A DNA stretch of 64,000 bases from Neocallimastix lanati (nom. inval.) (lineage: Eukaryota; Neocallimastigomycota; Neocallimastigomycetes; Neocallimastigales; Neocallimastigaceae): NCBI GenBank assembly GCA_016946835.1, contig JACVTC010000002.1:3640001-3704000 (forward strand), given 5' to 3'. Position 1 is the stretch's first letter. Each line of letters begins with the position of its first letter. The notes under the pieces were generated by a model. That model made no database searches. It was not told the DNA's origin and saw only the letters and a list, made by a program, of their open reading frames with translations. A program made the translations under genes and the position numbers. Positions 17,301-18,309 of this stretch are shown here, one piece after another.

Positions 17301-18309
17301 GATATAAAGAATACAAGAAGATACGTCTGAATTTATATATTATTTTAAAAGTATCATAATAGATTCTGGAGTTTGTTGTAGATATAAGTATGTAATTTTA
17401 AAACTTAATATATATTATTAAAAGTATTAAATATGAAACTATAATTTAAATAATGAAAAAATAATTTGATTATGTAATAATTTTTATTTTAACTAATAAT
17501 GCTTCAACTATATTAATAAAAAATAAAAAATTAATAACTTTTATTATTAAATTTCTAATAGACTTGGAGAGATAGAGTTTTTATCCAATAATATTACATC
17601 ATTATCAGTAATATATGAAATTTTATCAAAGAAAACTTTATCTTTAAATAAATCGTTTGAAAGCTTTTCACTTGATATCCTTTTTATATTTTCAAATTTA
17701 ATATTATACATATATATTATTAATATATATAAAAAGAGAATCCTTAATATATATATTATTATTATTATTTGTTTATTCTTTTATTTTAATATAATTTATT
17801 TTTTTTTTAAAAAAAAAACATATGGATGATAAGTTAGTTAAACCATTACTATTACAATTATATAAAGGACTGGAAAATGCTATAAACATCATTGAACAAC
17901 ATGATTTATTGATTCCAGTATTAAATGAATTATCATTACAAGAAAATGGAAATATTTCCTTTTTTGATGAAGATTTACTTAATATAATGGATAATGATAA
18001 AGAAATTGAGGAAAATTATGAAAATATGAAAGATGTCCAAGTTAGACGATTCATAGAGTAAATTATAAATAATTTTCATATGAAATAAACTAAATTTAAA
18101 AGACTTAAATATACTTATTTTTTAAATATATATATTATAAATATATTAAATATAATAATAGAGGAATAATCTCTCTATATACTGTACAAAAGAAATGTCA
18201 TGGTATTAATCCATCAAATTTAAATAAACTAGTTGAATTACTTGACGAATTTAAATCTTTTAATGGAACAAAAATAGACTGGAATCAATTATATCCGTTT
18301 TTTGAATAA
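14304..18309 (+). CDS. BBS7: BBS7, BBSome subunit
   Basis: Fourteen exons: 14304-14471, 14610-14717, 14838-14982, 15240-15334, 15433-15503, 15601-16330, 16434-16631, 16698-16763, 16848-16996, 17074-17163, 17310-17387, 17562-17674, 17820-18057, 18162-18309; 798 residues against about 715 in human BBS7. Landmarks in family order: an N-terminal beta-propeller with IVIGDNNGCIYFL, YVACQDKTIKIL, FFYGTIKGEIILM and LLVVGFESGFVRLY; a coiled coil in the second half of exon 6; the GAE-type segment YPIEGKYGTLSIFVVPN then IKPLSLHERV; and a helical C-terminus ending LVELLDEFKSF...PFFE. BBS7 is part of the BBSome coat that moves membrane cargo in cilia and flagella, which fits a fungus with flagellated zoospores. 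Every junction keeps the frame. Twelve introns are GT-AG; intron 12 is best read as AT-AC (separate entry). Confidence 0.88.
15002..15150 (+). repeat. (TTA)n microsatellite in BBS7 intron 3
   Basis: Nearly pure ATT/TTA triplets for about 150 bp, with one interruption near 15107. It makes up most of the third intron of BBS7. Confidence 0.9.
17675..17819 (+). other. Probable U12-type AT-AC intron (BBS7 intron 12)
   Basis: The 145-bp intron starts ATATCCTTTT, a perfect match to the AT-AC minor-intron 5' consensus ATATCCTTT, and ends AAAAAAAAAC. A TCCTTAAT at 17741-17748 fits the U12 branch consensus TCCTTRAY, but its adenosine lies about 72 nt before the AC, much farther than the usual 10-20. 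No other AG or AC occurs between that branch site and 17819. The join restores frame exactly (CTT G + AT ATG, giving SLDMDDK) and retains residues that align with BBS7 (VIYEILSKK beside ILKDVLSKE). A competing GT-AG intron 17608-17831 is also in frame but deletes those 27 conserved-region residues. Confidence 0.62.

Follow-up and report, generated by a model that had tools for sequence, protein, structure and literature searches.

The 145-nt stretch from 17675 to 17819 of the window (the whole 64,000-nucleotide stretch of DNA analyzed here) is very probably a U12-type AT-AC intron of BBS7 that a Neocallimastix-like anaerobic fungus excises with its minor spliceosome. This second splicing machine removes a rare class of introns and has been lost from most fungi; BBS7 is a cilium-transport gene. 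We assign the intron to the U12 type because of a spliced AT-AC product, perfect ATATCCTTT and TCCTTAAT signals, and genes for the minor machinery in the same genome. Splicing of 17675 to 17819 is real at the protein level. The U11 and U12 of this fungus fit the intron fully in predicted pairing, and its U6atac lacks the usual fit. The reading of this intron made by the first-pass annotation, and its proposal that minor splicing is retained, are both supported. Features are listed in Table 1.

Table 1. Features of the BBS7 intron and of the minor-spliceosome RNA genes
Feature	Location	Strand	Remarks
BBS7 gene	14304..18309	+	start codon inferred from Piromyces finnis protein, stop from P0001
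Exon upstream of AT-AC intron	17562..17674	+	LGEIEFLSNNITSLSVIYEILSKKTLSLNKSFESFSL
AT-AC intron, very probably U12-type	17675..17819	+	145 nt, phase 1
U12-type 5' splice site	17675..17685	+	ATATCCTTTTT, 8 pairs with re-read U11 5' end
Match to U12-type branch-site consensus (candidate)	17741..17748	+	TCCTTAAT, 72 nt from last intron base
Intron 3' end	17800..17819	+	T/A-rich, closing in AAC (3' splice site AC)
Exon downstream of AT-AC intron	17820..18057	+	MDDKLVKPLLLQLYKGLENAI...
U6atac copy 1	L009:1501-1649	-	GCC for conserved AAG of 5' splice-site box
U6atac copy 2	L010:1501-1646	+	GCC for conserved AAG of 5' splice-site box
U11 gene	L028:1367-1634	+	probably about 267 nt; Rfam 5' end 134 nt further downstream

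Protein evidence for splicing of an AT-AC intron in BBS7

The protein encoded by the joined exons matches bovine BBS7 (chain 6vbu_7) over its C-terminal 359 residues (E = 2.8e-32), and a longer joined product contains three BBS7 Pfam domains, the propeller, GAE, and platform. Excision of the intron keeps the frame, as had been claimed along with the restoration of BBS7-like sequence. Searched against 5.8 billion predicted proteins, the BBS7 query returned five matches, P0001 to P0005. The first of these, 744 residues long and predicted from a contig of 2,423 nt, shows no difference from the query across the searched region. When P0001 was mapped on the window, 742 of its 744 residues (all but the first two) were matched exactly over the 3,700 bases that run from 14610 to 18309, where the stop lies. 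Twelve introns interrupt this stretch, 11 of them GT-AG and one AT-AC (17675 to 17819). Because a 2,423-nt contig cannot contain a genomic span of 3,700 bases, we infer that P0001, whose record is not labelled in this respect, comes from RNA that has been spliced or from a copy of such RNA. One of the GT-AG introns in this mapping (14983 to 15239, plus strand) consists mostly of a long TTA trinucleotide run.

Among the four other fungal relatives, compared as proteins, the FSLE/MDD joint is kept in three: P0002 (Piromyces finnis), P0003, and P0004 (Anaeromyces robustus). In P0005 (Piromyces sp. E2) the whole stretch before MDDK is missing from the public gene model, a gap that may be an error of gene prediction at a non-GT-AG intron, AT-AC termini perhaps being unplaceable by annotation. 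That BBS7 relatives came from Piromyces finnis, Anaeromyces robustus, and Piromyces sp. E2 also bears out the attribution to an anaerobic fungus, which had been made from the letters of the window. Scored against bovine BBS7, the AT-AC product reached 338 and ranked 96th of 3,196 open products (best, 353). This similarity is too weak to fix the junction, which is placed instead by P0001 and the fungal relatives.

At the nucleotide level, the upstream exon ends in TTTCACTTG, the intron begins with ATATCCTTTTT at 17675 and closes with AAAAAAAAAAC at 17819, and the downstream exon resumes with ATATGGATG; read more widely, CACTTG is followed by ATATCCTTTTTAT, and TTTTTAAAAAAAAAAC by ATATGGATGAT. 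Exactly five junction pairs reproduce P0001 here, with termini AT-AC, TA-CA, AT-AT, TC-TA, and CC-AT. Because ATAT is present at both ends of the intron, all five give one and the same mRNA and protein, and 17675 to 17819 was chosen among them because only AT-AC corresponds to known splice termini. The coordinates and termini proposed by the first-pass annotation therefore agree with the mapping of P0001.

The next gene 3' of BBS7 (18628 to 20059, plus strand) matches HVSL (PF09749); two of its exon peptides queried one at a time scored 25.3 and 17.5 bits, below the cut-off of 26.8. The HVSL family includes USB1, an enzyme that trims the ends of U6 and U6atac.

Splice signals and the distant branch site

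The 5' splice site of the BBS7 intron is the full U12 consensus, RTATCCTTT being matched at the boundary by ATATCCTTT, in agreement with the perfect U12-type start described before. Genome-wide, ATATCCTTT occurs 6,228 times in 199 Mb, compared with 5,085 for the reversed word, or about 1.6e-5 per position and strand, which gives a chance expectation of about 4e-4 for an RTATCCTTT start among 12 introns, a rough figure that assumes GTATCCTTT to be equally common. The branch consensus TCCTTRAY is expected by chance in about 1.3% of introns of this length. The window has no excess of either word (RTATCCTT, 5 against 8.0 expected; TCCTTRAY, 12 against 11.6), and the other four RTATCCTT sites in the window have no intron look by eye.

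Only one TCCTTRAY match lies within the intron. Its branch A stands 72 nt before the last intron base, as noted previously, and the U12 of this genome is predicted to pair with it through UCCUUAAU at −7.8 kcal/mol. For the candidates nearer the 3' end, at 36, 30, and 9 nt, the predicted pairing with U12 is weak (−2.8, −2.2, and −1.1 kcal/mol). The first-pass annotation had judged a spacing of 72 nt unusual, and the optimum of 11 to 13 nt given for U12-type introns in PMC3584512 agrees with that judgment; the BBS7 intron misses this distance. The same source names the 5' splice site and the branch sequence as the defining features of the class. An earlier survey is described in PMC2846911 as scoring branch sites from −40 to −5 only, so that the BBS7 branch site would escape such a scan. 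A hairpin drawing the branch site toward the AC was considered and set aside, the intervening stretch folding no better than shuffles (z = +1.57). An AG-exclusion zone was likewise discarded as proof of a distant branch, because in the 11 GT-AG introns of BBS7 the tail lacks AG over 26 to 137 nt. The far branch site is one of two unexplained points, the other being the changed box of both U6atac genes, and the TCCTTRAY match stands as a candidate branch.

Minor-spliceosome RNAs and proteins in the genome

The first-pass annotation had predicted that the lineage keeps minor splicing, and had named absence of all minor-spliceosome RNAs and proteins as an outcome that would count against it; genes for both were present. 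All 762 contigs of the genome (199.0 Mb) were searched with Rfam models, 14 prokaryote genomes serving as controls. Two U6atac genes (57.4 and 56.4 bits; Rfam cut-off, 33), U12 (56.8 bits; cut-off, 53), and U11 (40.5 bits; cut-off, 39) exceeded their thresholds, and U4atac scored 47.2 bits, below its cut-off of 53 (E = 4.8e-5). None of the 14 controls yielded a minor snRNA over the Rfam cut-off, and sub-cut-off matches occurred in 11 controls for U6atac, 7 for U12, 3 for U11, and 11 for U4atac. The predicted U4atac/U6atac duplex has 11 unbroken pairs and a second block (−27.1 kcal/mol), and departures from the family consensus in one RNA are matched by departures in the other. Among the proteins, CENATAC gave three collinear exon matches, two of the three above cut-off, and its two end peptides were both above cut-off when rescored. 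CENATAC is reported to promote AT-AN minor introns (PMC8280824). The genome search, which is unable to show absence, returned no match to the SCNM1 zinc finger or to PDCD7.

The Rfam alignment starts U11 at AGAATAGGC, and AAAAAGGGCTTATG, which is the classical U11 5' end and also agrees with the Rfam U11 consensus line, stands 134 nt upstream. The Rfam start would imply a changed U11. It was rejected because AAAAAGGGC, lying 134 nt upstream, closes the U11 junction and, occurring once in 0.70 Mb, is expected only 0.0004 times per 300 nt. With the longer end, CUUAU is predicted to pair with GUGAG ahead of the Sm site, and the predicted fold of the 267-nt RNA reads as a four-way junction. The re-read 5' end forms 8 bp with the BBS7 5' splice site at −6.0 kcal/mol, compared with −2.3 kcal/mol from the Rfam start; placement of the 5' end by Rfam would thus mislead as to 5' splice-site pairing by this U11. 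In its 5' AAAAAGGGCUU, AUCAAGA loop, AAUUUUUG Sm site, and predicted four-way junction the RNA resembles the U11 family (Rfam RF00548), from which it differs in its length of about 267 nt and its enlarged first stems.

A changed 5' splice-site box in U6atac

Both U6atac genes keep the 5' end, the AGAGA box, the U4atac-pairing region, and the 3' T run of the family (Rfam RF00619). Both copies depart from the family in reading UGAGCCGAGAGA in place of UGAAAGGAGAGA, and therefore the canonical helix with UCCUU is broken. In the wider sequence, GUGUUGUAUGAGCCGAGAGA stands against the family consensus GUGUUGUAUGAAAGGAGAGA, with GCCGA replacing AAGGA. The change falls on the bases responsible for 5' splice-site pairing, and pairing with UCCUU is lost in two of two copies. 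With AUAUCCUUUUU, the Rfam consensus U6atac forms a predicted duplex of −7.1 kcal/mol; the fungal U6atac pairs with the same sequence in a shifted register at −2.8 kcal/mol and reaches −11.1 kcal/mol with AUAUCGGCUUU. The two copies have about 200 bp of upstream flank in common, so they represent a duplication and are not independent witnesses. Work by Incorvaia and Padgett in 1998 is said to have found that activation of the mammalian 5' splice site requires pairing with U6atac.

A genome-wide search with a single pattern, allowing 2 mismatches at most, found no third copy with the usual box. A second kind of U6atac was also considered and rejected: the 44 matches to GTTGTATGANNNGAGAGAC with at most 2 mismatches (control, 16) trace to a retrotransposon-like repeat and to the two U6atac genes, apart from a few chance words, six loci of the repeat being inspected and the others judged by their letters. 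A search for U6atac relatives gave 4 matches in viral_contigs and 12 in genome_contigs, all 16 of them dismissed as chance words by eye. The dispersed repeat itself (L084 and L086 to L090) shows an integrase-like translation (VTDNGPQFTS), has a 19-base word common to more than 30 places, and resembles a Ty3-type retrotransposon. A class of 5' splice sites fitting the changed U6atac, sought as TATCGGYT followed after 20 to 50 nt by TCCTTAAY, gave 4 matches compared with 13 for the reversed control, the pattern being one that cannot detect the BBS7 intron, whose spacing is 57 nt.

Several accounts of the U6atac change can be offered: the helix may be dispensable or compensated, a further U6atac may exist outside the assembled sequence, the box may be edited, or constraint on it may have relaxed as few minor introns were left. 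In the preferred reading of the intron, complementarity suggests that U11 would recognize the 5' splice site through UCCUUUUU, and U12 the branch site through UCCUUAAU. The U4atac/U6atac.U5 tri-snRNP would then join, with CENATAC favoring AT-AN introns as the literature indicates, and the 3' splice site would be the first AC or AG that follows the branch, at a distance of 72 nt. For the final step, U6atac would replace U11 through a 5' splice-site helix that is unusually weak because the AAGGA box reads GCCGA. A tentative extension, which we hold as possible rather than probable, is that in this fungus U12-type 5' splice sites of canonical form are processed by a minor spliceosome whose U6atac has lost the AAGGA-UCCUU helix. 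Recognition by U11 and U12 would be intact, hand-over would depend on proteins (CENATAC and the like), the shifted GAGAG register, or the AGAGA box, and far branch sites would perhaps be tolerated.

Other explanations for the intron

Removal of the AT-AC intron by the major spliceosome, with U2 picking a branch near the 3' end, is unlikely, although several observations fit it: the U12-type branch site lies 72 nt from the 3' end, the 3' T run and A run resemble those of the BBS7 intron at 17164 to 17309 by eye, pairing of U6atac with the 5' splice site is poor, and AT-AC termini alone are, in PMC3584512, no proof of the minor class. Against these stand the eight bases of ATATCCTTTTT that fit U11, a complete U12 branch consensus, and a genome that encodes minor machinery, including CENATAC.

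That the true intron is GT-AG, with the AT-AC product an artefact of reading, is very improbable. The first-pass annotation had itself named this alternative as the result that would overturn its reading. The alternative has canonical termini and stays in frame (27 codons shorter), and its coordinates are 17608 to 17833 rather than 17607 to 17832. The GT-AG junction removes 27 residues that have counterparts in P0001, P0002, P0003, and P0004, lowers the bovine BBS7 score from 338 to 296 (2,512th of 3,196 products), and is contradicted by P0001, a transcript-type protein spliced AT-AC. We give as little credence to the idea that 17675 to 17819 is an insertion or an assembly artefact missing from the expressed allele. 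The ATAT at both ends resembles a target-site duplication, and intron-like low-complexity DNA of this kind matches 58 other places in the genome, but the other BBS7 introns are similarly AT-rich by eye, the ends carry specific U12-type signals, and at the DNA level the exons match one place in the assembly only.

Other minor introns in the genome

A sample of 82 ATATCCTTT words (77 loci, mostly from 100 of the 6,228) was examined for a second minor intron. Only 2 of the 82 had a TCCTTRAY 20 to 220 nt downstream, and both lay in coding-looking DNA with no intron look by eye, so that this sample yielded no second minor intron. A broader pattern, TATCNNNT followed after 20 to 50 nt by TTCCTTAAC, a spacing that likewise cannot detect the BBS7 intron, matched 148 times, compared with 110 for the control. 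Among the matches listed (100 of the 148), none had TATCGGCT, one had TATCGGTT, and one had TATCCTTT; this lone TATCCTTT candidate begins CTATCC in DNA that looks non-coding by eye, and the class was set aside. The sample gives no count, and hints that minor introns are few in this genome.

Minor splicing in anaerobic fungi

Larue and Roy (2023) reported minor introns in Neocallimastigomycetes, including Piromyces finnis and Neocallimastix californiae, and found many if not all minor snRNAs present in these fungi (PMC10639083). The surprise at the level of the class is therefore already published, and the BBS7 intron, from the same fungal class and likewise accompanied by minor snRNAs, joins a known set. 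BBS7, a change in U6atac, and a long U11 go unmentioned in the accessible text of that paper. The literature searched contained no report tying BBS7 to a minor intron and no mention of a changed U6atac in anaerobic fungi, supplements and most subscription journals being outside its scope. Compared with U12-type AT-AC introns in general, this one has the perfect 5' splice site, the AT-AC termini, the perfect branch consensus, and a genome with U11, U12, U4atac, and U6atac genes, and it departs from them in a branch distance of 72 nt instead of about 11 to 13 and in the changed pairing box of U6atac.

With BBS7, the small set of such introns known from fungi gains a spliced AT-AC example from a cilium gene, together with the snRNA genes and the one protein gene by which an anaerobic fungus could process it. 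The potential surprise lies in the U6atac change: a natural U6atac that forms no 5' splice-site helix, if true, would make the need for this helix directly testable.
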